This document shows positions 1 through 56,839 of a stretch of 64,000 nt of DNA, in pieces. Positions within the stretch are counted from its first letter, which is position 1, and the number at the start of each line of letters is the position of its first letter. The DNA is from Globisporangium splendens (lineage: Eukaryota; Oomycota; Peronosporomycetes; Pythiales; Pythiaceae): the NCBI GenBank assembly GCA_006386115.1, contig VFIW01000010.1, positions 1 to 64,000 on the forward strand, read 5' to 3'. A program made the translations under genes and the position numbers. The notes under the pieces are model-generated. The model was not told the origin of the DNA, made no database searches, and was given only the letters and a program-made list of their open reading frames with translations.

Positions 1-449
1 GTTCGGTGGCGTGGATATCCACCGAGCTCGGACACTTGGTACCACGGCATACGATGGAGTCTGATTTCCCGACGTGGTCCGCAGCTACGAGAACCGCTTG
101 TAGCGTCGCCAGGAGCGACACTACGACGACCAGAGCTGGGATTCGCTCTGTCGTCAGCAGGAGTTCTTCTTTGGGCACGAGCATTGCCACGGCGAAGAAG
201 ACGCTCCATCTTGTTCTCGTTCTCAAGACGAACGAATGTTCGCCATGAGTCTCTCTGGGCTGCGATGTGTTGGTTCGGATCATCACGATTGTTGATCCGA
301 CGCCAACTGAAGAACCGCTCCTTGTAGAACTCGAGATCCCCCTTCTTCTTCAGAATGGAGGATACGTCGAAGAGTTCTGGAGCTGCCTGCTGTCGCTTGG
401 ACAACGGACGTTCTTCACCTTGGTTCACTTGGTCACTTGGTCGCTTCAT
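1..449 (-). CDS. Antisense ORF of G0 (partial, runs off the window)
   Basis: An open frame of at least 149 codons runs on the minus strand from an ATG at 449-447 to the window edge. Its start (MKRPSDQ, then a KR-rich stretch) and the conserved block SWRTFVRLENEN match the antisense proteins of G2, G3 and G4. A 1-base deletion shared with the opposing pol frame near base 84 puts its distal part out of register with the G2 version. Role unknown. It begins about 75 bp inside the 3' LTR and would need a promoter in or near that LTR. Confidence 0.6.
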   Translation of the reverse strand, partial: MKRPSDQVNQGEERPLSKRQQAAPELFDVSSILKKKGDLEFYKERFFSWRRINNRDDPNQHIAAQRDSWRTFVRLENENKMERLLRRGNARAQRRTPADDRANPSSGRRSVAPGDATSGSRSCGPRREIRLHRMPWYQVSELGGYPRHR

Positions 450-24100: not shown

Positions 24101-25843
24101 GCACCACTTCGTTCATTGGCTGTCCCATCAGACAGTTGGAAGTCTGTGAGTATGGATTTCATATTCGGACTTCCGCGTGACAAACACGGACGCAATGGCA
24201 TCCTTGTGTTTGTGGACCGATTCAGCAAGATGGTCCATCTTGCACCTGTTTCGGACAAGATCTCAGCCGAAATGACGGCCAAGGTCTTTGTAGACGTCGT
24301 ATTCCGTCTGCATGGCCTGCCCGTTGAGATCGTGTCTGACCGTGACACTCGGTTTACGTCCAAGTTTTGGCGTGCACTGTTCGGACTTCTGGACACCAAG
24401 TTGTCCATGTCAACAGCGGCACATCCTGAAACGGACGGTCAAACTGAACGAGTGAATCGTGTCCTTGAAGACGTGTTGCGAAGCTACGCAACGTCTTTCA
24501 AAGAGTGGAGTGAGTTTCTCCCTCTTGCCGAGTTTGCGCTGAACAACTCCACGCATGTCTCGACAGGTCACTCTCCATTTTATGTGAACTATGGCATTCA
24601 TCCTCGAATGCCTGCTTCCATAATGGGTGAGGTCTCTACCTTAAGTGGGGGAGGGACTCCGGCTAAAGGCAATAAGCCGCAGTCGTCGTATGACCTGAAT
24701 GCTGTTGCCGAGTTAAAAGCCAACTTTGACTCGATGAAACCCCTCAACGACATCACTAGTCGTGAGGTGCAGCAAGTCGATGACTTTATCGTGAGGAGAC
24801 AAGCCGTTGTGAGGTTTGTTCGAGACGCAATCGCGAAGGCTCATGATCTGCAAAAGGAACAAGCAGACAAGAGCGGAAGGAAGAACAAGCAAGTATATAA
24901 GATCAATGATCTTGTATTACTTAGCACGGCGAACCTGCCTGAACATGCAGTGTCCAACTTGGGAAGCTCGAAGCTTCTGCCAAGGTTCATTGGACCGTTC
25001 AAGGTGGTTAAATGCAATGGGGATGCCTACACGCTAGACATACCTACACGCATGCGTCTACACCCTACATTTTATGTGGGTAGACTAAAGCCTTACCTTC
25101 CAAGCGGATCAGCGGATCCTACGAGATCTTCCGCAAACGATCAAGCTGATCTTGAAGCTTCTCCACTTGATTGCGAAGAGCAAACAGCTCGTCGCTCTGG
25201 AGATTCTTCTCGGCGTACAAGAGTTGCAGGACGTCGAAGGATTGGTCCTTCACCGACTCCAGCGCTTGAAGACGAGAATGGTACTCACCACGAAGTACCT
25301 CAAAAGCCGAACCTGCCTCTTCCACAGAGCGCAAAAGGCGATCGTGAGCCAACTCACGAGACTTCTCGTTCTTCTGGAGTCGGACAAGTTCGCCCTGAAC
25401 TTGCTGGAACCGTTCCTCGAAACGGGACTCCAAAGCCGAACACTGGGCACAACCTTCTGTCGGGACATCGATCTTTGACTCATGATCGGCGACAAGGTTC
25501 TCGAGACTCTCGCAGCGTTCCTCAAGTGTCGAACAACGCTGCTGCAAAGCCTCGATTTGCCCACGATGAGCACTCTTCCACTTCCAGAGTCGCTCAATCG
25601 TTTTCTCGTTCAGCCCCACCCCCGTTGTTAGACTCTCAGGGAGAGCATCGTTGGGTGGTTGAGTCGATTGTTGATCACGAAGATCGACCGACTCATCGTC
25701 GAGGAAAGAAGCAGTTGAACCATCAACGCTTCTACAGAGTTCGGTGGCGTGGATATCCACCGAGCTCGGACACGTGGGAACCACGGCAGACGATGGAGTC
25801 TGATGTTCCCGACGTGGTCCGCAGCTACGAGAACCGCTTGTAG
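21074..25843 (+). CDS. G2 pol: protease, RT, RNase H, integrase, chromodomain
   Basis: An uninterrupted frame of 1589 codons, entered by -1 shift from gag. Domains in order: protease (ALVDTGASNNFV, then IILGMPWLKRYQ), RT (STVFSAIDLKDGFYQI, MPQGLKNAPATFN, SYFDDIFVHS), RNase H (DASDYAIGCAL, YTDHASLRTAV, ILADALSRRPDY), integrase HHCC (GGHLGREKTF ... CEICQRVK), DDE core (SMDFIFGLP, VSDRDTRF, TERVNRVLED), a GPF segment (LLPRFIGPFKVV), a disordered linker, and a chromodomain (FYRVRWRGYPPSSDTWEP) ending at 25843. The linker and chromodomain (25119-25843) lie opposite the antisense ORF. All catalytic residues seen are present. Because gag is broken, this copy could only move with help. Confidence 0.95.
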   Translation, partial: RERPVRAGPPTGLEKRTVFADTQDSGPNVHDSHAVSTRENSVSQTSSLIVLKVHVDGIATPLRALVDTGASNNFVRNEVIVRHKVPMPDANEDKTMVIRLANGSTVKMPKRVVRLAMECEDFRGEDEFILLDLDDKFDIILGMPWLKRYQPSIDWMKMKISVDKSHYADLSCVTTDEVVWVYTSVEEIPDDPRDIAVCDGPPCSRAVPILKKTTGGGAVRRQQKTVPFAIDPMDEAMCVEETNGKRAEEPSRDKMTKKKKQLSSIVASATCAPDQGTSQDDEGSVQARVTLSEYVNVLVYNEDGDSNVMRHIEVENPPSSVEELISLPWMSKKTLKRSLAKGEISQICAIVDEVADDVINTAEVFDEKTRKERFEEQSWDALKTNPVYELVKEYEDIFPDKVPDELPFDRGIRHEIDILPGTKYCITRQWPLPREQVVAIDEFFAQRAKAGHVRESKSPHCSPTFCVKKATGGWRIVHAFNKLNDATIPAQTPVPRKDMILDGMVGSTVFSAIDLKDGFYQIRMREDDVPLTAVSTPSGMLWEWLVMPQGLKNAPATFNRMATNLLRPLRGFAPSYFDDIFVHSKTTGEKSDVDAHLDHLRQVFQVMRENKLYANLKKCIFFAQEIPVLGCFVGKHGVRVDPEKVKAIDDWPVPQNVKQLRQWLGLANYLHKYTRNYAALVQPLTQLLKKDIEWEWSSDHQAAFAEVKRSLREAPVLAIANHDKPFHVVCDASDYAIGCALMQHDDEGHERVVSYQSRQLRPAERNYPVHDKELLAMKYSLVKFRVYLLGEERFVIYTDHASLRTAVKTPHLSQRMARWFSFFAEYNFVVHYKPGKTNILADALSRRPDYDPKTKSEDTDGACRLCEDVQAIVVQATTTVREDIIEGYKSDETCQDLLKYFKDPSDKALQGLPSRTRSRVHRFRVHNGLLYYAVEQGDTARVVVPNDEGLRHRLLYEYHDSPSGGHLGREKTFLSLSRDYYWPHMYKWVRKYVRTCEICQRVKPSGSTQAPLRSLAVPSDSWKSVSMDFIFGLPRDKHGRNGILVFVDRFSKMVHLAPVSDKISAEMTAKVFVDVVFRLHGLPVEIVSDRDTRFTSKFWRALFGLLDTKLSMSTAAHPETDGQTERVNRVLEDVLRSYATSFKEWSEFLPLAEFALNNSTHVSTGHSPFYVNYGIHPRMPASIMGEVSTLSGGGTPAKGNKPQSSYDLNAVAELKANFDSMKPLNDITSREVQQVDDFIVRRQAVVRFVRDAIAKAHDLQKEQADKSGRKNKQVYKINDLVLLSTANLPEHAVSNLGSSKLLPRFIGPFKVVKCNGDAYTLDIPTRMRLHPTFYVGRLKPYLPSGSADPTRSSANDQADLEASPLDCEEQTARRSGDSSRRTRVAGRRRIGPSPTPALEDENGTHHEVPQKPNLPLPQSAKGDREPTHETSRSSGVGQVRPELAGTVPRNGTPKPNTGHNLLSGHRSLTHDRRQGSRDSRSVPQVSNNAAAKPRFAHDEHSSTSRVAQSFSRSAPPPLLDSQGEHRWVVESIVDHEDRPTHRRGKKQLNHQRFYRVRWRGYPPSSDTWEPRQTMESDVPDVVRSYENRL

Positions 25844-26189
25844 CGTCGCCAGGGGCGACACTACGACGACCAGAGCTGGGATTCGCTCTGTCGTCATCGG
25901 GAGTTCTTCTTTCGGCACGAGCATTGCCACGACGAAGAAGACGCTCCATCTTGTTCTCGTTCTCAAGACGAACAAATGTTCGCCATGAGTCTCTCTGAGC
26001 TGCGATGTGTTGGTTCGGATCATCACGATCGTTGATCCGACGCCAACTGAAGAACCGCTCCTTGTAGAACTCGAGATCCCCCTTCTTCTTCAGAATGGAG
26101 GATACGTCGAAGAGTTCTGGAGCTGTCTGCTGTCGCTTGGACAACGGACGTTCTTCACCTTGGTTTACTTGGTCACTTGGTCGCTTCAT
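25119..26189 (-). CDS. Antisense ORF of G2 (356 aa, coiled coil)
   Basis: Starts MKRPSDQVNQ at 26189, 77 bp inside the 3' LTR, and ends at 25119 beneath the pol linker, overlapping pol by 725 bp. The N-terminal 115 residues, mostly outside pol, hold two basic clusters (KRPSDQ, LSKRQQT), an aromatic segment (FYKERFFSWRR) and the block SWRTFVRLENENKMERLL. The middle is Ser/Pro-rich. From residue 205 there is a long predicted coiled coil (IERLWKWKSAHRGQIEALQ, LQDQLDRLRK). An upstream in-frame ATG in the LTR would add 33 residues, but the MKRP start is the one conserved in G0, G3 and G4. No known family was recognised. Confidence 0.65.
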   Translation of the reverse strand: MKRPSDQVNQGEERPLSKRQQTAPELFDVSSILKKKGDLEFYKERFFSWRRINDRDDPNQHIAAQRDSWRTFVRLENENKMERLLRRGNARAERRTPDDDRANPSSGRRSVAPGDATSGSRSCGPRREHQTPSSAVVPTCPSSVDIHATELCRSVDGSTASFLDDESVDLRDQQSTQPPNDALPESLTTGVGLNEKTIERLWKWKSAHRGQIEALQQRCSTLEERCESLENLVADHESKIDVPTEGCAQCSALESRFEERFQQVQGELVRLQKNEKSRELAHDRLLRSVEEAGSAFEVLRGEYHSRLQALESVKDQSFDVLQLLYAEKNLQSDELFALRNQVEKLQDQLDRLRKIS

Positions 26190-40500: not shown

Positions 40501-43380
40501 CTCGGCTGCTTTGTGGGAAAGCATGGCGTTCGAGTTGATCCGGAGAAGGTCAAAACTATTGACGATTGGCCTGTGCCTCAGAATGTCAAACAGCTGAGAC
40601 AATGGTTGGGTTTGGCCAACTACTTGCACAAGTACACGCGCAATTATGCAGCGTTGGTGCAACCCCTCACACAGCTCCTGAAGAAGGACATTGAGTGGGA
40701 GTGGTCCAGTGACCACCAAGCAGCGTTTGCCGAAGTCAAGAGGAGTTTGCGAGAAGCTCCTGTGTTGGCAATTGCAAACCACGACAAGCCTTTTCATGTG
40801 GTTTGCGATGCAAGCGATTATGCCATCGGTTGCGCCTTGATGCAACACGATGATGAGGGTCATGAGCGAGTTGTGTCGTATCAGTCACGACAACTCCGAC
40901 CCGCAGAACGGAACTACCCAGTTCATGACAAAGAACTTCTGGCGATGAAGTATTCTTTGGTCAAGTTCCGTGTGTATCTGCTTGGAGAGGAGCGCTTCGC
41001 GATCTACACAGATCATGCGTCGCTGCGTACGGCAGTGAAGACTCCTCATTTGTCGCAAAGAATGGCGAGATGGTTCTCCTTCTTTGCAGAGTACAACTTT
41101 GTTGTACACTACAAGCCAGGCAAGACGAACATCTTAGCTGATGCGCTGTCAAGACGTCCGGATTACGATCCGAAGACCAAGAGTGAAGACACGGACGGAG
41201 CGTGTCGACTCTGTGAAGATGTTCAAGCGATCGTGGTGCAAGCAACGACTACAGTGCGAGAAGACATTATCGAAGGGTACAAGTCTGACGAAACATGTCA
41301 GGACTTGTTGAAGTATTTCAAGGACCCTTCGGACAAAGCACTGCAGAGCTTGCCTGCTCGAACAAGGTCGCGAGTTCACCGCTTCCGAGTACACAATGGG
41401 TTGTTGTACTATGCGGTTGAACAAGGGGATACAGCAAGGGTTGTTGTTCCCAACGACGAAGGTCTGCGTCATCGACTCTTGTATGAGTACCATGACAATC
41501 CTTCGGGTGGCCATCTCGGACGTGAGAAAACGTTTCTCAGTCTTTCCCGGGATTACTACTGGCCACACATGTACAAGTGGGTTCGCAAGTGCGTGAGGAC
41601 TTGCGAGATCTGCCAACGAGTGAAACCTTCTGGTTCCACGCAGGCACCACTTCGTTCATTGGCTGTCCCATCGGACAGTTGGAAGTCTGTGAGTATGGAT
41701 TTCATATTCGGACTTCCACGTGACAAACACGGACGCAATGGCATCCTAGTGTTTGTGGACCGATTCAGCAAGATGGTCCATCTTGCGCCTGTTTCGGACA
41801 AGATCTCAGCCGAAATGACGGCCAAGGTCTTTGTAGACGTCGTATTCCGTCTGCATGGCCTGCCCGTTGAGATCGTGTCTGACCGTGACACTCGGTTTAC
41901 GTCCAAGTTTTGGCGTGCACTGTTCGGACTTCTGGACACCAAGTTGGCCATGTCAACAGCGGCACATCCTGAAACGGATGGTCAAACTGAACGAGTGAAT
42001 CGTGTCCTTGAAGACGTGTTGCGCAGCTACGCAACGTCTTTCAAAGAGTGGAGTGAGTTTCTCCCTCTTGCCGAGTTTGCGTTGAACAACTCCACGCATG
42101 TCTCGACGGGTCACTCTCCATTTTATGTGAACTATGGCATTCATCCCCGAGTGCCTGCTTCCATAATGGGTGAGGTCTCTACCTTAAGTGGGGGAGGGAC
42201 TACGGCTAAAGGCAATAAGCCGAAGTCGTCGTATGACCTGAATGCTGTTGCCGAGTTAAAAGCCAATTTTGACTCGATGAAACCCCTCAACGACCTAACA
42301 AGTCGTGAGGAACAGCAAGTCGATGACTTTATTGTGAGGAGACAAGCCGTTGTGAGGTTTGTTCGAGACGCAATTGCAAAGGCTCAGGATCTGCAAAAGG
42401 AACAAGCAGATAGGAGCGGAAGGAAGAACAAGCAAGTTTATAAGATCAATGATCTTGTATTACTTAGCACGGCGAACCTGCCTGAACATGCAGTGTCCAA
42501 CTTGGGAAGCTCGAAGCTTCTGCCAAGGTTCATTGGACCGTTCAGGGTAGTTAAATGCAATGGTGATGCCTACACGCTAGACATACCTACACGCATGCGT
42601 CTACACCCTACATTTTATGTGGGTAGACTAAAGCCTTACCTTCCAAGCGGATCAGCTGATCCTACGAGATCTTCCGCAAACGATCAAGCTGATCTTGAAG
42701 ACTCTCCACTTGATTGCGAAGAGCAAACAGCTCATCGCTTTGGAGATTCTTCTCGGCGTAAAGGCGCTGAAGCACATCGAAGGACTCCTCCTTCACAGCT
42801 CCCAGCACGAGAAGGCGCGAGTTATACTCCTTGCGGAGTACCTCAAGAGCCGTCCCTGCCTCTTCCACAGAGCGCAGTAGACGTTCGTGATGCATTTCAC
42901 GAGCCTTCTCAGCCTTTTGGAGTCGCTCAAGTTCGCCCTGGACTTGCTCGAACCGTTGCTCGAAACGGGACTCCAAAGCCCGATACTGAGCGGGACCAAA
43001 GGTCAGCGAGTCGATCCGCGGCTCCTGCTCCTTCACTTGGTCCTCGAGGCTCTCGCACCGATCCGAAAGGATCGCATCGCGAACTTCCAGTGTCTCAATC
43101 TGAGCGCGATGAGCACTCTTCCACTTCCAGAGTCGCTCAATCGTTTTGGCGTTCAGCCCCACCCCCATTGATAGACTCTCAGGGAGATCATCGCTGGGTG
43201 GTTGAGTCGATTGTTGATCATGAGGATCGACAGACTCGTGGGAAGAAGCAGTTGAGTCCTCAACGCTTCTACAGAGTTCGGTGGCGTGGATATCCACCGA
43301 GCTCGGACACGTGGGAACCACGTCAGACGATGGAGTCTGATGTTCCCGACGTGGTCCGCAGCTACGAGAACCACTTGTAG
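37588..43380 (+). CDS. G3 gag-pol fusion polyprotein (1930 aa)
   Basis: The ATG at 37588 (MDATGTPLGP) matches the gag starts of G2 and G4; a GTG two codons upstream is also open. Gag capsid-like region 30-250, CCHC knuckle from residue 298 (CFRCGKSGHFARNC), protease Asp413 (ALVDTGASNNF), RT (SYFDDIFVHS, about 919-928), RNase H (DASDYAIGCAL, YTDHASLRT), integrase HHCC and catalytic D1371, D1432 and E1468, GPF motif, linker, chromodomain (FYRVRWRGYPPSSDTWEP). Gag joins pol without a frame change because the slippery A-run has seven rather than six A (38616-38622). All catalytic residues seen are intact. Fusion would alter the normal gag:pol ratio, so this copy may be expressed but poorly assembled. 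Confidence 0.95.
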   Translation: MDATGTPLGPAVPETVELTIEGFPHLSSHEWMALERMRDVIGEAVVVSRLRSASPEDQKSAVVSFMHHEIMSSRKQVATPVSSIRTVPLKLDVSPYRGGENEPLSRWFVELDAAIAARQLRDPSQQVLFAMSNLAGRAKSWAYGKRLADLNCFPSYEDFKTELKKAFEPPQSEFRARAEFLKLRQGRFDLHSYAQRARYLVSSIVDEPIDVSTQVVTFMAGLNDGPIRNQLFREYPKTLDEAIERAMQEEFSMKQAKFQGFASRPMRQSNVAHDGPEPMDISYISTPGNECPRNDGKCFRCGKSGHFARNCKVSLPGRQTTQGARSNNHDRSYGRRFERSPGPKKREWPVGAGPPTGPEKRTVDVVDTQDSGPNVHDAHAVSTRENSVNQTSSLIVLKVHVDGIATPLRALVDTGASNNFVRNEVIVRHKVPMPDANEEKMMVIRLANGSTVKMPKRVVRLAIKCEDFRGEDEFILLDLDDKFDIILGMPWLKRYQPSIDWMKISVDKSRDVDLCCTTTDEVVWVYTSVEEIPDDPRDIAVCDGPPCSRAVPILKKTTGGGAVRRQQKTVSFAIDPMGEAMCVEETNGKRAEEPSREKKKKTSKKSVPCAPDQGTSYGDEGSVQAQDISSEFANIAVYNEDGDVDVIRHVKIENPPSSVEELTSLPWMSKKTLKRSLAKGEISQVCMIVDIDDAEDINTVSATEAEVFDEKTRKERFEEQSWDALKKNPVYELVKEYEDIFPDKVPDELPFDRGVRHEIDILPGTKYCITRQWLLPREQVVAIDEFFAQRAKAGHVRESKSPHCSPTFCVKKATGGWRIVHAFNKLNDATIPAQTPVPRKDMILDGMVGSTVFSAIDLKDGFYQIRMREDDVPLTAVSTPSGMLWEWLVMPQGLKNAPATFNRMVTNLLRPLRGFAPSYFDDIFVHSKTTGEKSDVDVHLDHLRQVFQVMRENKLYANLKKCIFFAQEIPVLGCFVGKHGVRVDPEKVKTIDDWPVPQNVKQLRQWLGLANYLHKYTRNYAALVQPLTQLLKKDIEWEWSSDHQAAFAEVKRSLREAPVLAIANHDKPFHVVCDASDYAIGCALMQHDDEGHERVVSYQSRQLRPAERNYPVHDKELLAMKYSLVKFRVYLLGEERFAIYTDHASLRTAVKTPHLSQRMARWFSFFAEYNFVVHYKPGKTNILADALSRRPDYDPKTKSEDTDGACRLCEDVQAIVVQATTTVREDIIEGYKSDETCQDLLKYFKDPSDKALQSLPARTRSRVHRFRVHNGLLYYAVEQGDTARVVVPNDEGLRHRLLYEYHDNPSGGHLGREKTFLSLSRDYYWPHMYKWVRKCVRTCEICQRVKPSGSTQAPLRSLAVPSDSWKSVSMDFIFGLPRDKHGRNGILVFVDRFSKMVHLAPVSDKISAEMTAKVFVDVVFRLHGLPVEIVSDRDTRFTSKFWRALFGLLDTKLAMSTAAHPETDGQTERVNRVLEDVLRSYATSFKEWSEFLPLAEFALNNSTHVSTGHSPFYVNYGIHPRVPASIMGEVSTLSGGGTTAKGNKPKSSYDLNAVAELKANFDSMKPLNDLTSREEQQVDDFIVRRQAVVRFVRDAIAKAQDLQKEQADRSGRKNKQVYKINDLVLLSTANLPEHAVSNLGSSKLLPRFIGPFRVVKCNGDAYTLDIPTRMRLHPTFYVGRLKPYLPSGSADPTRSSANDQADLEDSPLDCEEQTAHRFGDSSRRKGAEAHRRTPPSQLPAREGASYTPCGVPQEPSLPLPQSAVDVRDAFHEPSQPFGVAQVRPGLARTVARNGTPKPDTERDQRSASRSAAPAPSLGPRGSRTDPKGSHRELPVSQSERDEHSSTSRVAQSFWRSAPPPLIDSQGDHRWVVESIVDHEDRQTRGKKQLSPQRFYRVRWRGYPPSSDTWEPRQTMESDVPDVVRSYENHL
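38616..38659 (+). promoter_or_regulatory. Former -1 frameshift site of G3 with an extra A
   Basis: AAAAAAAC (seven A) at 38616-38623, where G2 and G4 have six, then a perfect 10-bp hairpin GGCCAGTAGG (38630-38639) / CCTACTGGCC (38650-38659). The hairpin persists although the frame is already fused. The stem is longer than in G4 through a paired GG/CC change. Confidence 0.75.
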
Positions 43381-43726
43381 CGTCGCCAGGGGCGACACTA
43401 CGACGACCAGAGCTGGGATTCGCTCTGTCGTCAGCAGGAGTTCTTCTTTGGGCACGAGCGTTGCCGCGACGAAGAAGACGCTCCATTTGGTTCTCGTTCT
43501 CAAGACGAACAAACGTTCGCCATGAGTCTCTCTGGGCTGCGATGGGTTGGTTCGGATCATCACGATTGTTGATCCGACGCCAACTGAAGAACCGCTCCTT
43601 GTAGAACTCGAGATCCCCCTTCTTCTTCAGAATGGAGGATACGTCGAAGAGTTCTGGAGCTGTCTGCTGTCGCTTGGACAACGGACGTTCTTCACCTTGG
43701 TTCACTTGGTCACTTGGTCGCTTCAT
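42662..43726 (-). CDS. Antisense ORF of G3 (354 aa, coiled coil)
   Basis: Starts MKRPSDQVNQ at 43726 and overlaps the end of pol by 719 bp. Same layout as in G2: basic N-terminus, FYKERFFSWRR, SWRTFVRLENENQMERLL, a Ser/Arg-rich middle and a coiled-coil C-terminal half (IERLWKWKSAHRAQIETLE, SLQDQLDRLRK). The coiled-coil part differs from G2 by many substitutions and by in-frame length changes, yet stays open. Phase against pol is first position to first position. Confidence 0.65.
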   Translation of the reverse strand: MKRPSDQVNQGEERPLSKRQQTAPELFDVSSILKKKGDLEFYKERFFSWRRINNRDDPNQPIAAQRDSWRTFVRLENENQMERLLRRGNARAQRRTPADDRANPSSGRRSVAPGDATSGSRSCGPRREHQTPSSDVVPTCPSSVDIHATELCRSVEDSTASSHESVDPHDQQSTQPPSDDLPESLSMGVGLNAKTIERLWKWKSAHRAQIETLEVRDAILSDRCESLEDQVKEQEPRIDSLTFGPAQYRALESRFEQRFEQVQGELERLQKAEKAREMHHERLLRSVEEAGTALEVLRKEYNSRLLVLGAVKEESFDVLQRLYAEKNLQSDELFALRNQVESLQDQLDRLRKIS

Positions 43727-47144: not shown

Positions 47145-47795
47145 AGTAATATAGCTTCTCGTCACCACTGACGACGACTCCTCACGCGGCACGCTGTGAC
47201 GATTTGGCACGCTCGCTGGCGAGGGTCCAGGTAGCGTAATTCAGTACCCCGTGAGCGCATTCCAGAAGGAATGGATTGACGACCCAAGGGGCGCGCCAGA
47301 AGGTGAAATAGAGCGCAGCGACCCAAGATCGCGTTGAGGCCAGTTCGGCGCCCATGCGGATGGTGGGAGCTTGGACTTGGTAAAAGGAGGGATGACTCGT
47401 AGGCAGATGACAAGAGGACTCAGCGCAAGCCGAAAGGGGTGGGTGGGCGCGTGGGGCGTTGCCGCGAAGTAGCTTTTACGTTCTCACTGCTAAACGAGCG
47501 GTAAAGTACTCACATCTGCATCTCACTTGGTGTGTTTTGCTGTGTTGTTGTGGTCTGTTCTTCTCTGTGTCTGCCTGTGCGCCCAATTGACTTTCGCGCC
47601 GAGAGACGCTGGGATTCCTCTCGGAAGCCAAGACGGAGACGCGGATCCCTCCTGAGGCGGCCATTTGGGACGAGTTTCCCTTATTGGCTTTACCGTAACG
47701 TGCACTAGGGAGGTCCTGGTGACGTAACGGCGTGCGCGAAAGGAAATTGGGACTTAGGAACACGTGACGCACAGTGATATAGACACAATATATTA
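47145..47795 (+). repeat. G5 LTR, second copy (about 651 bp)
   Basis: Preceded by a purine-rich run (AATGGGGAGGACG), as expected for a 3' LTR, but followed directly by another gag, as expected for a 5' LTR. It therefore serves both units of the tandem. Confidence 0.75.
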
Positions 47796-48067
47796 CGTGG
47801 TGGTCATACTGGGGCTTCGTTAAGGGTCTTCCTACACGATCTTTGAGGAGGTTGCGGAGGGGCCACGGAAAAACGGGACCAGGCGGACCAAGTTGTAGCG
47901 GGAGAAGACTGACCAGCCGAAGAGCGCGCGTTAGTTCGCGAAACAGCTGCGTCGGCACCAAGGACGTGTGGGGCGCGAGTGTTAGTTCGGGGAACCAGGG
48001 CGCCGCTCGTCGAAGAAAATAACAACGCACGTGGGGTTGAAAGCCACAGTGTTAACCGTGCTGTGAG

Positions 48068-49168
48068 GTGCGATCAAGGAAATCTGCTCCCGCGAAAATG
48101 GTGGGCACGAGGAGCTCAACGCCCAACAAGAGGAATGGCGCAGTGGACGCGCGGGACACAACCCCAACACGAAGAAGCAGTACGAGAACCACAGCGGCAG
48201 GGCGAAGCGTCACAGTGGACTTGGCGAGTGGCTCAGGAACCGATAGCGAGGAGTCGCCCCGAAATCGACGAAGCAGAACCGCATCAAGATCGGCGCAGCA
48301 AGTGACACCAGGCTCGACGAGGGGCACGGTGGCTAATGGAAGTACTGGCGGCACCCACTGGAAGATCCAGAGCCCGGCGACTAGCGACTTTGACGGAAGT
48401 TCACGGCCAGTACACGACTGGATCAACCATTTCGAAGCTGCAGTAGAGGCGGACGAGTCCCTTCGCGATGGCGCGAAGTGGTCAGCTAGGACGCTCTATC
48501 ACGTCATGGCAACGCATCTCTAGGGCAGAGTGGCAACGTGATATGGGCGAGTGAAGCACAGCATACCAGAAGAAGAGCGTGAGGTCGAGTTGCTCAAGGC
48601 GAAGCTACGGGCACAGTATGGGAGGCGCGAGACGGCGTCTCAGATCTTCAACCAGGTAATGCAGCGACGGAAGAAGCGGGAGGAAACCTTTGTGGAGTTC
48701 GCGGAAGCGCTGGAGAACCTAGGTCTGGGATCGGAACTGAAAGAGAACCAGTACATTGAGGCGTTCACGAACGGTGTCTCCCCGACGATTCGTGCCGTAT
48801 TGGTCGCTGCTCCACTGTTAACCCTGCTGGAAGCTTGCGATAGAGCGTATTAGGTACTGATGCATGATGGAGCCGAGAGAGAAGCCAAGAAGTCACACAG
48901 GGGTGGCGACTTCTTGAAGACGGCGAAGGTACTTGCAGCTACAAGCGCAGAATCGAAATATGGGCCATCTGACGCAACCAAGGTCAGCAAGAAACGCGAC
49001 GTTGGTGGACTTGGACGCCCGACTCAATTTGAGAATGAGCGACGTTCTGGGAAACGGAAACGCGATTGGGGCAATCGGTGTTTTGTGTGCAATATGGAAG
49101 GGCAATTTGCCAGGGAATGTCCAAATCGTGCAACCTACCATCCTAGCGCCAGTGCGGGAAACGCTTAG
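48068..49168 (+). pseudogene. G5 gag, second copy, same three stops
   Basis: Practically identical to 35683-36783, including the TAG, TGA and TAG stops and the His-to-Gln knuckle. It shows the uninterrupted junction (GCATCCCCGCTCAGATATATC) into which G3 inserted in the first copy. Confidence 0.85.
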
Positions 49169-49386
49169 GGGGTGCAAACGCGGAGTGTTTGCATCCCCGC
49201 TCAGATATATCTCCACCACGAACCACCAATCAAACTGCTCAAGTAGAGATGCTAAATCAAGTTGCACCAAGACACGAGAATGAACGTGGAGGACAGAACG
49301 AGGTGTCGCTAGGAGCTGGAGGCGGGACGACCTCGATTGATGGTCTCAGTGCGAAGCCCGCGATGCCAACAACCAACGAGAGAGAG

Positions 49387-49996
49387 TGTAATGGGCTAAG
49401 GCTGCCATTTCATGCAAGGTGGCTCTTTGTGTGTGTCACACACCACCTTGTGGAAGTGCATTGTGGGTGCGAAGATATTGGGTGAAACACATGAAAGTGA
49501 TCCCCACATGCACAGGTGACGTCATCGTCTGACGTCAGAGCAATCTGTGTCTGAGTTGAGTGTTGGTCGCTCGCAATCATTGAGATTCGGCGTGATTACG
49601 CACAACAGTACTCTAGACACGTGAATGATGGTTCCTACTTGGGGAAACTGCACTGGTGATGAGACCGACGTGTCTCTACCGTCTGAAGTGAGTGGCTGTA
49701 GCCAATCACTTCGCAGAGAATCCCCGCGGTACTTCAAGTTCAAGCTTCTCGAAGATCCCCTGGGTTCAACCTCAGTGTACCCAAGTTTTTATGCATCAGG
49801 TTCATAGGTTTTATTTCTGCATGTTTAGGTTTTATGCATAAAACCTCTAGGAGCCCTAGTGGTGTTTTACATGTAGTGTCAGGAACCATAAGCTCATTTC
49901 AATTCAGTTGCATTTTTGCCAAGTTCCCCTCAAGTCTTCCTCTTCAAGCGCAAGCGTGCGTGCCGTGTTTGAGGCTGTCTCGGATAGCCTCTTACA
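49387..49996 (+). repeat. 5' LTR of G4 (type B, 610 bp)
   Basis: Shares with type A the terminal inverted repeat TGTAATGG...CCATT(T/A)CA, the paired TGACGTCA sites (49517, 49530) and the TATA-to-hairpin segment, but the type-A triple palindrome is replaced by unrelated sequence. AGGTTTTATGCATAAAACCT (49827-49846) is a perfect 20-bp palindrome. Confidence 0.94.
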
Positions 49997-50103: not shown

Positions 50104-51147
50104 ATGGAAGGGATTGAGACGCCGATGGGCTCGATGCCTGGAGAGACCGTGGAGCTGACGAATGAGCATTTTCCTCATTTGTCGAGCCACGAGTGGGCAG
50201 CCCTCGAGCGTATGCGAGCGGTCATCGGTGAGGCGGCTGTGATCAGTTTGCTGAGATCAGCGTCACCGGATGAGCAGAGGAACGCGGCTACGAGCTTCAT
50301 GCATCACGAGATCATGAACTCTCATCGACAGCCCGCAACTCCTGTCACGACGATGAGAGTGGCACCTCTGAAGCTCGATGTATCTCCGTACCGTGGCGGA
50401 GAGAACGAACCTCTAGCGAGATGGTTCGTTGAGTTGGATGCAGCGATCACTGCAAGACAACTACGGGACCCAATGCAGCAAGTGTTGTTTGCGATGTCAA
50501 ACCTTGCGGGTCGAGCGAAGAGTTGGGCGTATGGGAAGCGATTGGCGGAGCCACATTGCTTCTACGACCTGGACGACTTCAAGCGAGAGCTGAAGAAGGC
50601 TTTTGAACCTCCGCAGAGCGAATTTCGGGCTCGCGCTGAGTTCTTAAAGCTTCGTCAGGGTAAATACGACCTACACTCGTACGCTCAACGAGCACGATAC
50701 CTCGTGTCAAGTATCGTGAATGAGCCGATTGATGCCTCAACGCAAGTTGTGACATTCATGGCAGGGCTCAATGATGATCCAATTCGGAACCAGCTGTTCC
50801 GCGAGTACCCCAAGACGCTGGATGAAGCCATCGAGCGAGCGATGCAAGAAGAATTCAGCATCAAGCAAGCCAAGTTCAACGGTTTCGGCCCTCGCCCTGT
50901 TCGACAACACGCAGTCACACACGACGGTCCAGAACCGATGGACATCTCGTATGCCGATGCGACTACAAGCAGATACCCACGCAATGACGGGAAGTGTTTC
51001 CGTTGTGGCAAGCCCGGTCACATCGCAAGAAATTGCAAGGTGTCCTTGCCAAGCCAGCAAGCGACACACGGTTCGCAATCGAATCGACCAGGCAGAGGCC
51101 GGCGATTCGAGCGTTCCCAACAGCCAAAAAACGGGAACGACCAGTAG
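50104..51147 (+). CDS. G4 gag (347 aa)
   Basis: Starts MEGIETPMGS about 108 bp after the LTR. It has a Gypsy-type capsid region (HLSSHEWAALERMRAVIGEA, LKLDVSPYRGGENEPLARW, GRAKSWAYGKR, FEPPQSEFRARAEFLKLRQG) and a single CCHC knuckle (CFRCGKPGHIARNC, about residue 297), then a basic tail. It ends at TAG 51145-51147, inside the 5' arm of the frameshift hairpin. Expected to form the retrotransposon particle. Intact. Confidence 0.94.
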   Translation: MEGIETPMGSMPGETVELTNEHFPHLSSHEWAALERMRAVIGEAAVISLLRSASPDEQRNAATSFMHHEIMNSHRQPATPVTTMRVAPLKLDVSPYRGGENEPLARWFVELDAAITARQLRDPMQQVLFAMSNLAGRAKSWAYGKRLAEPHCFYDLDDFKRELKKAFEPPQSEFRARAEFLKLRQGKYDLHSYAQRARYLVSSIVNEPIDASTQVVTFMAGLNDDPIRNQLFREYPKTLDEAIERAMQEEFSIKQAKFNGFGPRPVRQHAVTHDGPEPMDISYADATTSRYPRNDGKCFRCGKPGHIARNCKVSLPSQQATHGSQSNRPGRGRRFERSQQPKNGNDQ

Positions 51148-51166
51148 GAGCGGGGCTCCCTACTGG
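51126..51166 (+). promoter_or_regulatory. Predicted -1 ribosomal frameshift site of G4
   Basis: Heptamer A AAA AAC (51126-51132) in the gag frame, an 8-nt spacer, then a hairpin with arms CCAGTAGG (51141-51148) and CCTACTGG (51159-51166) and a G/C-rich 10-nt loop. Spacer and stem fit the established rules for -1 frameshifting. The pol frame is open from before the site, and the gag stop lies in the stem. Confidence 0.82.
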
Positions 51167-54100
51167 GCGAACAAAGAGTTCTGTGAATGTCGTGGAAGCG
51201 CAGAACTCTTGCCCCGGTGTGCGCAATGCACATGAAGTTTCCGCGAACAGATGTGAGCGTGTCGAGCAAGAGCCAGCCTTGATAGTCCACAAGGTTAAGG
51301 TAGATGGTTACTCAGAACCTCTACGGGCTCTTGTAGACACTGGTGCGTCGAACAATTTTGTCCGCACACAAGTGGTGAGAAGGCAAGGTTTGGACCTGCC
51401 TATCTCGAACAAGGAAATGATCGTTCGCTTGGCGAATGGATCGAAAGTGACGATGCCTAAGCGCGTGTTGCGTATGGCAATCGAATGTGATGATTTCCGA
51501 GGCGAAGATGAGTTTATAGCACTCGACCTCGATGACAAGTTTGATCTGATTCTGGGAATGCCCTGGTTGAGAAGGTACCAACCGAGCATTGACTGGAAGA
51601 AGAAGAAGATCAGCGTCGACAAGCAAGTCGACGGAGACCTCAGCTGCCAGGCAGCAAGAGAGGTGATTTGGGCATATACATCTGTTGAAGATGTGTCTAA
51701 TGAGAGTCAGGCGTGCGATGGCCCCTCACACTCAAATGACAAGCCCGTGAAGACCACTGGAGGTGGAGTAGTCAGGCGCCAGAAAAAGACTGCTCCTGTA
51801 GCCAAGAGCGATGAAGAGTTCCGCTCTGGCAGGGTTAAAGAAGACAAGAAGACCGACGAAGAAGAACGAAGATCTGCAAGCGTCCCTGATCAAGACACAA
51901 GAAAGGCAGAAGATGAAGTGAAGAGACAAGAACAAGCCACTTCAAGCGAATATGTGAACGTCGCAGTCTACAATGAAGAAGGTGACAGCCAGATAGTGCG
52001 TCACGTACAAGTGGAAAATCCTCCAAGTGTGGCTCAAGAATTGATTTCCTTGCCGTTGATGAGCAAGAAGACGCTTAAGCGTAGCCTGGCGAAAGGCGAA
52101 ATTTCGCAAATTTGTGCGATCGTCGATGAAGTTGCCGACGATGTCATCAACACTGCGGAAGTGTTAGATGAGAGGACACGGAAGGAGAGGTTTGATGAGC
52201 AGTCGTGGGACGCTCTAAAGACAAACCCCGTGTATGGACTTGTCAAGGAATATGCGGACATATTTCCAGACAAAGTGCCGGACGAATTGCCGCAGGACAG
52301 AGGCATTCGTCACGAGATTGATGTACTTCCGGGAACGAAGTACTGTATCACGAGGCAATGGCCGCTACCGAAGGAACAAGTCGATGCGATCGACGAGTTC
52401 TTCGCGCAGCGACAGAAGGCTGGCCATGTGCGCGAGAGCAAGTCTCCGCACTGCAGTCCCACCTTCTGTGTGAAGAAGGCCACAGGCGGTTGGCGCATTG
52501 TTCACGCATTCAACAAATTGAATGATGCGACCATACCTGCTCAGACCCCAGTTCCACGCAAGGATATGATCCTTGATGGAATGGTTGGCAGCACTGTCTT
52601 TAGCGCGATCGATCTGAAAGACGGGTTCTATCAGATTCGAATGCGTGAGAGCGATGTACCATTTACAGCAGTAAGCACCCCTAGTGGTATGCTGTGGGAA
52701 TGGATGGTGATGCCACAAGGTCTGAAGAACGCACCAGCAACTTTCAACAGAATGGTCACGAATGTACTTCGTCCATTGAGAGAGTTTGCACCGAGCTACT
52801 TTGACGACATATTCGTTCATAGTAAGGCCTCGGAAGGGAAGAAAGATGTCGATGTTCATCTTGAACATCTTCGTCAAGTCTTTCAAGTTATGCGTGAGAA
52901 CAAACTGTACGCTAACTTGAAGAAATGCATCTTCTTCGCCCCCGAGATCCCTATACTCGGTTGCTTTGTTGGCAAGAATGGCGTTCGGGTCGATCCTGAG
53001 AAGGTCAAGTCTATCGACGATTGGCCTATTCCTCAGAACGTCAAACAGCTACGTCAGTGGCTGGGTTTGGCTAACTATTTGCACAAATACACGCGCAACT
53101 ATGCAGCGTTAGTGCAACCCCTCACGAGTCTTTTGAAGAAAGATAATGAGTGGGAATGGCCAGAGGAACATCAGGCAGCGTTTGCCGAAGTAAAGAAGAG
53201 CTTAAGAGAAGCTCCTGTCCTAGCTCTCGCAGACCATGAGAAGCCGTTCCATGCAGTCTGCGATGCGAGCGACTATGCCATCGGGTGTGCACTGATGCAA
53301 CACGATGATGAGGGCAAAGAAAGAGTTGTGTCGTATCAGTCACGACAACTCAGGCCCGCAGAACGGAACTATCCGGTCCATGACAAGGAACTATTGGCCA
53401 TGAAGTATGCATTGGCAAAGTTCCGAGTCTATTTGCTTGGTGAAAAGCAGTTCGCTATTTACACTGATCACGCATCACTGCGGACAGCTGTAAAGACGCC
53501 TCACCTATCGCAAAGAATGGCAAGATGGTTTTCCTTCTTCGCTGAGTACAACTTTGTTGTACATTACAAGCCCGGCAAGTCAAACATTCTTGCCGATGCG
53601 CTGTCAAGACGTCCGGATTATGATCCGAAGAACAAGAGTGACGACACGAACGGAGCGTGCCGACTCTGTGAAGACGTCAACGCGATTGCTGCGGGAGTGA
53701 CAAGCACAATCCAAGAAGAAATCACTGAGGGCTACAAGCAAGACGAAGCATGTCGAGAACTGATCAAGTATTTCAAAAATCCCTCAGATAAGGCACTCCA
53801 AAACCTCCCATCAAGAGCAAGATCGCGTGTTCACCGTTACAGCATGCACAATGAGCTGTTGTGTTATGCGGTTGACGAAGGGGACCCAGCGAGGATCGTT
53901 GTCCCCAACAACGAAGGTCTGCGTCATCGACTCTTGTACGAGTATCATGACGGTCCTTCGAGTGGCCATCTCGGACGTGAGAAAACGTTTCTCAACTTGT
54001 CTCGAGATTACTACTGGCCTCACATGTACAAGTGGGTTCGCAAGTATGTGCGTACTTGCGAAGTGTGCCAAAGAGTTAAGCCATCCGGCTCTACTCGGGC

Positions 54101-55829
54101 CCCACTTCGTTCATTGGCTGTCCCTCAGGACAGTTGGAAGTCTGTGAGTATGGATTTCATATTCGGACTTCCAAGAGACAAACACGGACGCAATGGCATC
54201 CTTGTGTTTGTGGACCGATTCAGCAAGATGGTGCATCTTGCGCCGGTCTCGGATAAGATCTCGGCAGAGATGACTGCGAAAGTCTTTGTAGACGTGGTGT
54301 TCCGTCTACATGGTCTGCCCTCGGAGATCGTATCAGACCGTGACACTCGGTTTACGTCTAGGTTTTGGCGAACTCTGTTTGGCATTTTGGATACAAAACT
54401 ATCCATGTCAACAGCAGCACACCCAGAGACAGACGGTCAAACTGAACGAGTGAATCGTGTCCTTGAAGACGTGTTGCGCAGTTATGCGACGTCTTTCAAA
54501 GAGTGGAGTGAGTTTCTCCCTCTTGCCGAGTTTGCGTTGAACAACTCCACGCATGTCTCGACAGGTCATACCCCGTTCTATGTGAACTACGGACTCCACC
54601 CGAGAGTGCCAGCGTCACTAGTGGGAGAGGTTTCTACCTTAAGTGGGGGAGAGACTATGGCTAAGGAGCCACAGTCGGATCTGAATGCTGTCACAGAGTT
54701 AAAAGCGAATTTTGACTCGATGAAACCTCTAGACGACATGACAAGTCGTGAGGAACAGCAAGTCGATGACTTTATTGTGAGGAGACAAGCCGTTGTGAGG
54801 TTTGTTCGAGACGCAATTGCAAAGGCTCAGGATCTGCAAAAGGAACAAGCAGATAGGAGCGGAAGGAAGAACAAGCAAGTATATAAGATCAATGATCTTG
54901 TATTACTTAGCACGGCTAATCTACCTGAACACGCAGTGTCTAACTTGGGGAGTTCGAAACTTCTGCCAAGATATATTGGACCGTTCAGGGTAGTTAAATG
55001 CAATGGTGATGCCTACACACTAGACATTCCTAAACGCATGCGACTACACCCTACGTTCTACGTAGGTAGACTAAAGCCTTACCTTCCAAGTGGGTCAGCG
55101 AACCCTACAGAGCCTTTGGCAGACGATCAAGTCGATCCTGAAGTCGCTCCACCAGCTCGCGAAGAGTCTGTAACTCATCGTCATGGAGCTTCTTCTCGGC
55201 ATAAAGGCGCTGAAGCACATCAAAGGACTCGTCCTTTATTGTCTCCAACGCGAGAAGGCGACCATGATACTCCTTCCGAAGTATCTCAAGAGAAGTCCCT
55301 GCCTCTTCCACAGAGCGCAGTAGACGTTCGTGATACGCATCACGAGCTTTCTCAGCCTTCTGGAGTCGTTCAAGCTCGGCTTGAATCTTCTCGAACCTCT
55401 GTTCGAAATGTGACTCCATTGCCGAACGCTGGGCAAGACCATCGAAGAGCAAGTCGATCTTCGACTCCTGCTCCTTCAACCGGTCTTCGAGGCTTTCGCA
55501 CCGGTCTTCGAGTACCGCGTTGCGAACTTCAAGAGCCTCGATCTGAGCGCGGTGAGCACTCTCCCACTTCCAGAGTCGCTCAATCGTTTTCGCGTTCAGC
55601 CCCACCTCCTCTGATCGATCATCAGGGAGAGCGTCGTTGGATCGTTGAGTCGATAGTCGATCACGAGGATCGATCGACTCGTCGTCGAGGAGAGAAGTCG
55701 TTGAACCGTCAACGCTTCTACAGAGTACGGTGGCTTGGCTATCCGCCGGACTCGGACACGTGGGAACCTCGAGAGACTCTTCAGTCTGATGTTCCCGACG
55801 TGGTTCACAGTTACGAACAGAGCTTGTAG
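51132..55829 (+). CDS. G4 pol: protease, RT, RNase H, integrase, chromodomain
   Basis: A 1565-aa frame entered by the -1 shift; the same frame is open back to 50994. Protease Asp69 (LVDTGASNNFV), RT with SYFDDIFVHS (Asp558-559), RNase H (DASDYAIGCALM, YTDHASLRTAV, ILADALSRRPDY), integrase finger (SGHLGREKTF ... CEVCQRVK), catalytic D1008, D1069 and E1105 with the D,D(35)E spacing, the GPF segment (LLPRYIGPFRVV), a disordered linker and a chromodomain (FYRVRWLGYPPDSDTWEP). Chromodomain Gypsy integrases usually steer insertion to marked chromatin. No disabling change was seen. The last 725 bp lie opposite the antisense ORF. Confidence 0.95.
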   Translation, partial: RERPVGAGLPTGRTKSSVNVVEAQNSCPGVRNAHEVSANRCERVEQEPALIVHKVKVDGYSEPLRALVDTGASNNFVRTQVVRRQGLDLPISNKEMIVRLANGSKVTMPKRVLRMAIECDDFRGEDEFIALDLDDKFDLILGMPWLRRYQPSIDWKKKKISVDKQVDGDLSCQAAREVIWAYTSVEDVSNESQACDGPSHSNDKPVKTTGGGVVRRQKKTAPVAKSDEEFRSGRVKEDKKTDEEERRSASVPDQDTRKAEDEVKRQEQATSSEYVNVAVYNEEGDSQIVRHVQVENPPSVAQELISLPLMSKKTLKRSLAKGEISQICAIVDEVADDVINTAEVLDERTRKERFDEQSWDALKTNPVYGLVKEYADIFPDKVPDELPQDRGIRHEIDVLPGTKYCITRQWPLPKEQVDAIDEFFAQRQKAGHVRESKSPHCSPTFCVKKATGGWRIVHAFNKLNDATIPAQTPVPRKDMILDGMVGSTVFSAIDLKDGFYQIRMRESDVPFTAVSTPSGMLWEWMVMPQGLKNAPATFNRMVTNVLRPLREFAPSYFDDIFVHSKASEGKKDVDVHLEHLRQVFQVMRENKLYANLKKCIFFAPEIPILGCFVGKNGVRVDPEKVKSIDDWPIPQNVKQLRQWLGLANYLHKYTRNYAALVQPLTSLLKKDNEWEWPEEHQAAFAEVKKSLREAPVLALADHEKPFHAVCDASDYAIGCALMQHDDEGKERVVSYQSRQLRPAERNYPVHDKELLAMKYALAKFRVYLLGEKQFAIYTDHASLRTAVKTPHLSQRMARWFSFFAEYNFVVHYKPGKSNILADALSRRPDYDPKNKSDDTNGACRLCEDVNAIAAGVTSTIQEEITEGYKQDEACRELIKYFKNPSDKALQNLPSRARSRVHRYSMHNELLCYAVDEGDPARIVVPNNEGLRHRLLYEYHDGPSSGHLGREKTFLNLSRDYYWPHMYKWVRKYVRTCEVCQRVKPSGSTRAPLRSLAVPQDSWKSVSMDFIFGLPRDKHGRNGILVFVDRFSKMVHLAPVSDKISAEMTAKVFVDVVFRLHGLPSEIVSDRDTRFTSRFWRTLFGILDTKLSMSTAAHPETDGQTERVNRVLEDVLRSYATSFKEWSEFLPLAEFALNNSTHVSTGHTPFYVNYGLHPRVPASLVGEVSTLSGGETMAKEPQSDLNAVTELKANFDSMKPLDDMTSREEQQVDDFIVRRQAVVRFVRDAIAKAQDLQKEQADRSGRKNKQVYKINDLVLLSTANLPEHAVSNLGSSKLLPRYIGPFRVVKCNGDAYTLDIPKRMRLHPTFYVGRLKPYLPSGSANPTEPLADDQVDPEVAPPAREESVTHRHGASSRHKGAEAHQRTRPLLSPTREGDHDTPSEVSQEKSLPLPQSAVDVRDTHHELSQPSGVVQARLESSRTSVRNVTPLPNAGQDHRRASRSSTPAPSTGLRGFRTGLRVPRCELQEPRSERGEHSPTSRVAQSFSRSAPPPLIDHQGERRWIVESIVDHEDRSTRRRGEKSLNRQRFYRVRWLGYPPDSDTWEPRETLQSDVPDVVHSYEQSL

Positions 55830-56154
55830 TGCTCTCGCGAGCACTAGAACGACGAGAGCCAAGCTCTTTATGGTCGTTCTCGAGCGTGCCTCCTAGGTTC
55901 CCTAGCAAACGCTCGACAAGATTCTCGTTCTCGAGTCGGACAAACGTCTTCCACGACTCGAGCTTCGCTGTGCTGGACTGGCCAGGATCGTCGCTGCCGG
56001 ACATCTTGCGCCAGAGGAAGAACAACTCCTTGTAGAACCGACGTCCTCCACGCTTCTTGCGAATAGCGGAGATGTCGTACAAGCCGGGAGTCGTCCGCTG
56101 CCGCTTCGGCTCGGGCCGTTCTTCGCGCTTCACTTGGTCGCTTGATCGCTTCAT
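55105..56154 (-). CDS. Antisense ORF of G4 (349 aa, coiled coil)
   Basis: Starts MKRSSDQVKREE at 56154, 77 bp inside the 3' LTR. It keeps the plan of G2 and G3 at much lower identity: an NLS-like EPKRQRTTP, FYKELFFLWRK, SWKTFVRLENENLVERLL, a Ser-rich middle, then a coiled coil (IERLWKWESAHRAQIEALE, LQDRLDRLPK). Length differences from G2 are whole codons. It overlaps pol by 725 bp in the same phase. Conservation in the 325 bp beyond pol, where pol imposes no constraint, argues that the protein is made. Function unknown. Confidence 0.68.
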   Translation of the reverse strand: MKRSSDQVKREERPEPKRQRTTPGLYDISAIRKKRGGRRFYKELFFLWRKMSGSDDPGQSSTAKLESWKTFVRLENENLVERLLGNLGGTLENDHKELGSRRSSARESTTSSVRNCEPRREHQTEESLEVPTCPSPADSQATVLCRSVDGSTTSLLDDESIDPRDRLSTQRSNDALPDDRSEEVGLNAKTIERLWKWESAHRAQIEALEVRNAVLEDRCESLEDRLKEQESKIDLLFDGLAQRSAMESHFEQRFEKIQAELERLQKAEKARDAYHERLLRSVEEAGTSLEILRKEYHGRLLALETIKDESFDVLQRLYAEKKLHDDELQTLRELVERLQDRLDRLPKAL

Positions 56155-56230
56155 GGTCAATTGGAAAGTGAGAGCGGGTGCCTCTTCCGAAAGAAGTAAA
56201 GTCCGTGATGGAACTTTAAGGGAGGGATGA

Positions 56231-56839
56231 TGTAATGGGCTAAGGCTGCCATTACATGCAAGGTGGCTCTTTGTGTGTGTCACACACCACCTTGTGGAAG
56301 TGCATTGTGGGTGCGAAGATATTGGGTGAAACACATAAAAGTGATCCCCACATGCACAGGTGACGTCATCGTCTGACGTCGGAGCAATCTGTGTCTGAGT
56401 TGAGTGTTGGTCCCTCGCAATCATTGAGATTCGGCGTGATTACGCACAACAGTACTCTAGACACGTGAGTGATGGTTCCTACTTGGGAAACTGCACTGGT
56501 GATGAGACCGACGTGTGTCTGCCACCTAAAGTGAGTGGCTGTAGCCAATCACTTTGCAGGGAACTTTCCACGGGACTTCAAGTTCAAGTTTCTCGAAGAT
56601 CCCCTGGGTTCAACCTCAGTGTACCCAAGGTTTCATATATCAGATTCATAGGTTTATTTCTGCATGTTTAGGTTTTATGCATAAAACCTCTAGGAGCCCT
56701 AGTGGTGTTTTACATGTAGTGTCAGGAACCATAAGCTCATTTCAATTCAGTTGCATTTTTGCCAAGTTCCTCTCAAGTCTTCCTCTTCAAGCGCAAGCGT
56801 GCGTGCCGTGTTTGAGGCTGTCTCGGATAGCCTCTTACA
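56231..56839 (+). repeat. 3' LTR of G4 (type B, 609 bp)
   Basis: Preceded by AAGGGAGGGATGA. It differs from the 5' LTR at about 20 or more positions. Its middle (about 56465-56600) reads like type A (GCCACCTAAAGTGAGTGG, CTTTGCAGGGAA) and its ends like type B, so it looks mosaic. Its last base adjoins the CRN gene. Confidence 0.93.

Follow-up and report, generated by a model that had tools for sequence, protein, structure and literature searches.

An almost certainly coding antisense reading frame at the 3' end of a chromodomain Ty3/Gypsy clade in the oomycete Globisporangium splendens

Antisense open reading frames (ORFs) near the 3' long terminal repeat (LTR) are well known in plant retrotransposons, where those termed aORF-3R, namely gene23 of Grande and the frames of RIRE2, Retand (TRP28) and PvRetro13, are described as conserved across copies and species (PMC7264820; PMC11963269). 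The Grande product is reported to be nuclear, with a promoter upstream of its gene, and the PvRetro13 product to carry an SMC domain (PMC7264820; PMC11963269); a review calls the functions of antisense ORFs in LTR retrotransposons unknown (PMC7264820). Among retroviruses, HBZ of human T-cell leukemia virus type 1 (HTLV-1) is described as an antisense gene at the 3' end of an LTR element that encodes a bZIP protein, has a spliced form and is transcribed from starts in the 3' LTR (PMC10186651), and for ASP of human immunodeficiency virus type 1 (HIV-1), which overlaps env, a very recent origin has been argued (PMC8781085). Here we describe an antisense ORF in a clade of chromodomain Ty3/Gypsy elements, four of which (G0, G2, G3 and G4) occur in a 64,000-nucleotide stretch, hereafter the window (contig VFIW01000010.1 of assembly GCA_006386115.1, positions 1 to 64,000, forward strand). 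The DNA comes from Globisporangium splendens, a plant-pathogenic oomycete. The frame exceeds what chance would give and, as far as its sequence can tell, is almost certainly coding.

The antisense ORF of G4 lies on the minus strand at 55105..56154, begins with an ATG, encodes 349 amino acids and is kept in genome copies. Its counterparts in G2 (25119..26189, minus strand) and G3 (42662..43726, minus strand) also start with an ATG and encode 356 and 354 amino acids, in agreement with the range of 349-356 given by an initial annotation of the window; G0 retains the open 5' part, as that annotation had also noted, with an ATG at 449 and a frame (3..449, minus strand) that runs off the window's left edge. 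The ORF overlaps the last 725 bp of pol in G4, with the same layout in G2 and G3, and continues past the pol stop for 325 bp in G4 and 346 bp in G2 and G3, which bears out the roughly 325-345 bp first estimated. The start had been placed about 77 bp inside the 3' LTR. If this meant a start within the LTR, it has to be corrected: the ATG is 76 bp outside the LTR edge in G4, G2 and G3, so that the ORF is wholly internal. The attribution to all chromodomain Gypsy elements was likewise too wide, and stands for the one clade examined here.

The two frames overlap in an identical phase in G2, G3 and G4, with pol positions 1, 3 and 2 facing antisense positions 1, 2 and 3, respectively. Since the pol third position faces the antisense second position, a change there that is silent in pol alters the antisense amino acid. 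In 5000 shuffles of synonymous pol codons within the overlap, an antisense frame as open as the real one appeared 0, 2 and 0 times for G4, G3 and G2; with codons drawn from whole-pol usage, the corresponding counts were 0, 32 and 0 of 5000.

In order to follow the ORF beyond the window, the G. splendens assembly (53,310,241 bases in 195 contigs) was searched, and at least 116 genome places match it. From the genome matches found, 132 nearly full-length copies were picked by hand, of which 92 were obtained (80 of the 82 on the lists of subfamilies A and B, 12 of the 50 on the list of subfamily C); the three in the window complete a comparison set of 95, with 50 copies in A, 32 in B and 13 in C. 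The full antisense frame from its ATG is present in 83 of the 95, a share biased upwards because copies were selected as nearly full-length; 36 intact copies encode 349 amino acids, 43 encode 352-356, and the remainder 342 or 374. Pol is open across the overlap in 90 of the 95 copies, and both frames in 80. The ORF thus resembles the plant aORF-3R, as these are described, in being antisense to gag-pol at the end formed by pol and the 3' LTR and in its presence in many copies. It differs in that the plant frames are described as lying between pol and the 3' LTR, whereas here some two thirds of the gene lies under the last part of pol.

The part beyond pol, codons 1-107 in G4 numbering (55834..56154, minus strand), offers a view of selection outside the overlap. 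Pairwise ratios of nonsynonymous to synonymous substitution rates (dN/dS) were computed, like part of the overlap analysis and the clustering below, on the 83 intact copies, leaving out the 12 broken ones; copy pairs in these statistics are not independent. Over the 107 codons the antisense dN/dS is 0.259 between A and B (1230 pairs), 0.247 between A and C (492) and 0.253 between B and C (360); inside single subfamilies it is 0.376 in A, 0.271 in B and 0.256 in C. Among the window elements, the comparison of G4 with G3 beyond pol gives 0.26 and no stops in the antisense frame, against 0.52 to 1.35 and 2-8 stops in the other five frames; that of G4 with G2 gives 0.23 and no stops, against 0.49 to 1.36 and 3-8 stops. 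Variants common to at least two copies have an omega of 0.39 in B and 0.20 in C, and single-copy variants one of 1.15, 0.93 and 0.56 in A, B and C. These counts are aligned ones, made without L058, which replaced an ungapped count that had dropped 19 of the 32 B and 7 of the 13 C copies; single-copy counts upstream in pol are possibly inflated if some flanks are non-homologous. By this pattern B and C look like groups in which the gene is kept during replication and decays afterwards. A dN/dS analysis of this part had been proposed by the initial annotation, with values near 1 and frequent stops as the signs of a frame not under selection. Between subfamilies the values of about 0.25 speak for selection, but subfamily A alone comes near those signs by its shared variants (omega of 0.97), although its pairwise value is 0.376.

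These results bear on the view that the open frame is a by-product of the amino acids and codon usage of pol, with no antisense product at all. Long antisense ORFs do arise from composition, the joint openness of both frames in most copies suits such an origin, and so does the lack of constraint beyond pol that shared variants give for subfamily A. However, the synonymous shuffles, the dN/dS of about 0.25 between subfamilies over a stretch of 325-346 bp outside pol, and the low number of changes over the coiled coil at antisense second positions (pol third positions) in the three window pairs argue against it, and it can hardly be maintained for groups B and C or across the deep comparisons. 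We consider a by-product extremely improbable and a real coding gene highly probable.

Within the overlap, constraint appears to be divided between the strands. Upstream of the overlap, pol shows the usual pattern between G4 and G3: its first, third and second codon positions have 21, 97 and 9 changes. Opposite the pol linker (55083..55637, plus strand), which joins an SH3-like domain ending at amino acid 1363 to the chromodomain, codons 182-344 of the antisense frame (55123..55611, minus strand) specify a predicted long helix or coiled coil, and here the antisense frame is the more constrained one. Changes at the antisense third position (pol second) outnumber those at the antisense second (pol third) by 48 to 21 between G4 and G3 (p 0.0016), 68 to 27 between G4 and G2 (p 3e-5) and 54 to 25 between G2 and G3 (p 0.0015). 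Shared variants in this segment give antisense omegas of 0.58, 0.39 and 0.28 versus pol omegas of 1.96, 1.59 and 1.30 in A, B and C; protein identities of coiled coil and pol linker are 0.73 and 0.57 (G4-G3), 0.65 and 0.41 (G4-G2) and 0.74 and 0.57 (G2-G3). Even single-copy variants under the coiled coil have antisense omegas of 0.42, 0.71 and 0.50 in A, B and C, all below 1, which would not be expected from plain decay. Opposite the chromodomain (PF00385 by Pfam, pol amino acids 1549-1609; 55638..55820, plus strand) the order reverts: changes at pol third versus pol second positions number 17 and 8 (G4-G3), 15 and 6 (G4-G2) and 5 and 5 (G2-G3), and shared variants give antisense omegas of 1.0, 0.89 and 0.97 versus pol omegas of 0.24, 0.62 and 0.49 in A, B and C. 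The antisense protein is accordingly little constrained over codons 110-171 (55642..55827, minus strand), where model confidence is low. Each strand thus seems, by codon comparison and structure model, to hold its structured part opposite what is dispensable in the other. Taken together, the comparison of copies demonstrates conservation at the protein level with constraint shared between two strands, and the earlier statement that pol coding cannot explain the conservation is strongly supported by the frame-specific dN/dS, the codon-position split and the synonymous shuffles.

The same codon-position pattern and frame-specific dN/dS are protein-like, and so count against the idea that the conserved entity is an antisense non-coding RNA or regulatory DNA, with pairing to pol mRNA as the means of damping the element and the frame incidental. 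Retroelements are known to have antisense non-coding transcripts (PMC7264820), and small RNAs matching transposable elements have been reported in Phytophthora infestans (PMC3522703), so that the idea has precedents; we regard it as very unlikely as a replacement for the protein, although a role of double-stranded RNA may exist besides it.

The AlphaFold model of the G4 antisense protein has N-terminal helices at residues 38-51, 61-76 and 80-86, a stretch opposite the pol chromodomain (residues 92-176) whose confidence score (pLDDT) is below 50 and which we read as disorder, and one long helix at residues 182-344 opposite the pol linker, with pLDDT mostly above 90. The coiled-coil C-terminus first proposed from the letters is thereby matched by a long helix predicted at high confidence, and a coiled-coil oligomer is quite likely; the basic cluster described as resembling a nuclear localisation signal (NLS) is likewise present, within the part beyond pol. 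A three-helix fold like the KIX-like one of RECQL5 is a candidate likeness for the N-terminal domain. At E<=0.001 no Pfam family was found for the G4 and G2 antisense proteins, and the 17 families listed at E<=10 for antisense protein P0001 include neither bZIP nor TRP28 (PF04195). The locus also differs from the plant elements in host group, and Retand belongs to a non-chromovirus lineage. The likeness to HBZ that had been proposed therefore holds for the layout and not for bZIP: the gene shares with HTLV-1 HBZ, and with APH-2/3/4, a position antisense at the 3' end, with a predicted helical C-terminus and possibly a nuclear location here, and departs from HBZ as described in having a coiled coil of about 160 residues, a frame without a splice and an overlap with pol.

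Among 80 listed protein matches, 62 are annotated in G. splendens as hypothetical proteins, and the other 18 are family members with identities as low as about 40%, which come from short contigs of jgi, ena or lgn sources, which we took, unchecked, for metagenome or similar assemblies. No protein from another named organism appeared in the shared-word protein searches, which could miss one. The gene resembles HIV-1 ASP, in the account available to us, as an antisense gene over a structural gene judged by codon tests, and differs from it in having relatives that are about 40% identical and a domain conserved beyond the overlap (PMC8781085). That domain is visible among nine divergent members (two from the window), in which two segments that lie outside pol, residues 21-60 and 61-88, have mean pairwise identities of 0.54 and 0.61; the values are then 0.26 at 89-107, 0.46 at 108-171, and 0.59, 0.38 and 0.56 along the coiled coil. 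The G. splendens gene models were made by AUGUSTUS with transcriptome hints (PMC7163027); the existence of models for the antisense ORF in this annotation is a weak sign of an antisense transcript.

Two candidates may be named for the start of such a transcript. A motif of 15 nt resembling the oomycete initiator, CTCACTTTCCAATTG, stands 4-18 nt before the ATG of G4 (56158..56172, minus strand), at the same place in G0, G2 and G3, and is common to A, B and C. The identity of G4 and G3 is 15/21 bases at the motif, 16/35 above it, and then 15/20 and 20/24 on approaching the purine tract and the edge of the LTR. A pattern built on the four copies has 4 occurrences versus 0.13 expected, the pattern having been chosen after seeing the sequences; an initiator consensus, with at most two mismatches, occurs 18 times versus 9.6 expected, and among these copies it matches only G4, which is a weak match. 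Initiator and flanking elements have been described for Phytophthora and also found in Pythium ultimum, with leaders of 32-144 nt in the high-confidence P. infestans set as reported there (PMC3599244). A start at the motif would leave a leader of about 15 nt, below that range, and the consensus match is weak, so that its role as a promoter rivalling the 3' LTR from outside it is a guess. The 3' LTR promoter in turn remains a candidate only, since the ATG lies outside the LTR. The cAMP response element (CRE) sites that had been invoked for it are real, with 14 TGACGTCA boxes in the window versus 2.35 expected, but TGACGTCA is palindromic and found in 5' and 3' LTRs alike, and the boxes therefore give no direction. 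They come in pairs 13 bp apart at six of the eight places in LTRs, and two places have a single box (e.g., 43940, 43953 and 56361). A sequence close to the initiator-like motif, TTACTTTCCAATTT, occurs at 6490, 10870 and 27097 on the minus strand and at 29747 and 34140 on the plus strand, in ends that are repeated in another family of repeats (6441-6824, 10821-11204 and copies) and on the strand of its long ORFs; it is perhaps that family's own promoter.

The coiled-coil segment has a history of its own. In successive 200-bp windows, G2 and G3 share 94-99% identity between 39730 and 42530 in G3 coordinates, and 93-98% along what remains of the antisense ORF and most of the 3' LTR, but the two windows under the coiled coil reach only 77% and 72%. 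Clustering of the intact copies at a threshold of 8% yields two types for the N-terminal part (41 A; 42 B and C); for the coiled coil it yields 36 A, 30 B, a cluster of 14 made up of all 12 C and two A copies (L056 and L057), and three single A copies. Judged by these clusters, the segment has moved between subfamilies, most simply by recombination. The antisense frame survived the exchange in intact copies, and the pol overlap frame has one stop in L056 and none in L057. A second mosaic-looking stretch lies early in pol at 39330-39729, where G2 and G3 are 80% and 85% identical in two 200-bp windows, and G2 and G4 reach 90% in the second of these versus 65% and 84% in the preceding and following windows.

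An accessory gene with an exchanged coiled-coil segment would suit a defence-evading or host-derived factor carried to counter host silencing. None of the 84 proteins of one search listing is a recognisable cellular relative and no tie to silencing was found, and we hold this origin to be decidedly unlikely. A bolder and still unlikely possibility is that the antisense gene is the master of the stretch: the pol linker would be mainly the read-through complement of the coiled coil, the coiled coil an exchangeable specificity module whose alleles lineages swap with both frames kept, and the oligomers would recognise their own lineage. If true, this would constitute an antisense-strand self-recognition system of retrotransposons.

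Considered as a whole, the locus is best explained, at a probability of about 0.5 on present sequence comparisons, as an accessory gene of this chromodomain Ty3/Gypsy clade with its own antisense transcript. The transcript would start at the putative initiator-like promoter in the stretch separating the ATG from the 3' LTR, or else in that LTR, and would yield a product of about 350 residues. This would begin with a basic NLS-like region and continue with a small, conserved domain of helices, a segment lacking predicted structure and finally about 160 residues of coiled coil. The coiled coil would mediate oligomerisation, and the oligomer would enter the nucleus, a location we deem probable. 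There it may act on the element's own DNA or transcript, by analogy most likely regulating element expression or a nuclear complex. A role in regulating how the element itself is expressed or integrated is a tentative choice, in line with what has been proposed for plant antisense ORFs and reported for HBZ, a nuclear protein that represses the 5' LTR promoter. Somewhat less likely is a structural protein, basic and oligomeric, that binds nucleic acid or serves the assembly of the particle or nucleoprotein. L1 ORF1p is a coiled-coil trimer, and the long coiled coil and basic N-terminus of the antisense product would fit a comparable part; chains of L1 ORF1p are among 38 weak sequence matches (E 0.034-0.078), in which many unrelated coiled coils score better. 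However, no RNA-binding family is among those listed by Pfam, and an own transcript and timing of the antisense gene suit regulation better than particle assembly.

Several observations weigh against the accessory-gene explanation. Subfamily A, the least varied group beyond pol (median distance 0.016), shows no selection there by shared variants (17 missense, 8 silent, omega 0.97), which argues against every copy needing the gene, and 2 of its 27 shared variants are stops. The stop at codon 73 recurs in five copies (G000 copies L015, L019, L028, L029 and L035). A single lineage had been expected for it, but the smallest FastTree clade with all five carriers comprises 32 copies, so that the stop may be a recurrent change or may have been spread by recombination. 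In-frame stops are found in 17 of the 116 scored genome matches. The margin of the antisense frame beyond pol is narrow in two comparisons (for G4-L056 it has 0.39, the two closest frames 0.43 and 0.48; for G2-G3 the contrast is 0.20 versus 0.34), and the contrast opposite the chromodomain is significant in no single pair (p 0.11, 0.078 and 1). Furthermore, the putative NLS is a reading of the basic stretch by eye, and the structure and family searches gave no fold or family match that points to a function.

In G4 the other features of the element all lie on the plus strand. Its 5' LTR is at 49387..49996; a gag ORF (50104..51147; Pfam Retrotrans_gag and zf-CCHC) is followed by a pol ORF (50994..55829) with protease, reverse transcriptase, RNase H, integrase, SH3-like domain and C-terminal chromodomain, a purine-rich tract (56217..56230) directly before the 3' LTR, and the 3' LTR (56231..56839). 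The 3' LTR starts with TGTAATGGGC at 56231 in G4, 26266 in G2 and 43803 in G3. G4 pol is 82.9% identical to that of G2 and 83.0% to that of G3 over about 4 kb, and G2 and G3 are 91.8% identical over 7.7 kb. In G3 gag and pol form a single 1932-amino-acid frame (37582-43380), as opposed to the two overlapping frames of G4, so that the clade differs in its mode of pol expression. A stretch of about 2.7 kb occurs twice in the window (34760-36817 matches 47145-49202, and 44456-45165 matches 49200-49912; 99.9% and 96.4% identity in the two parts). G3 (36818-44454) sits between both parts of the first copy, and the second copy therefore looks like an empty site. With its chromodomain at the pol C-terminus the element resembles Chronos, an oomycete Ty3/Gypsy element, which is described as having a second, archaeal-type RNase H (PMC5348765); here Pfam gives one RNase H region at E<=0.001.

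The word antisense is absent from the main text of the Chronos paper (PMC5348765), and the passages of that paper and of PMC12477816 available to us hold no oomycete case. Titles and opening abstract lines in the open-access literature likewise gave no antisense ORF in oomycete or chromodomain elements. The initial claim that no such protein had been described agrees with this literature for oomycetes; it left unmentioned the antisense ORFs known from plants. Plant elements and retroviruses already offer antisense genes, and the present one extends the phenomenon to oomycetes. With many copies in three subfamilies, a domain free of overlap and a phase that leaves pol unable to mask the signal, the coding claim is unusually testable. 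Many of the "hypothetical proteins" in the G. splendens annotation belong, by the 62 matches there, to a transposon. Finally, the locus is an apparent clear case of two opposed genes that share constraint, with the structured part of each lying opposite the spare part of the other.

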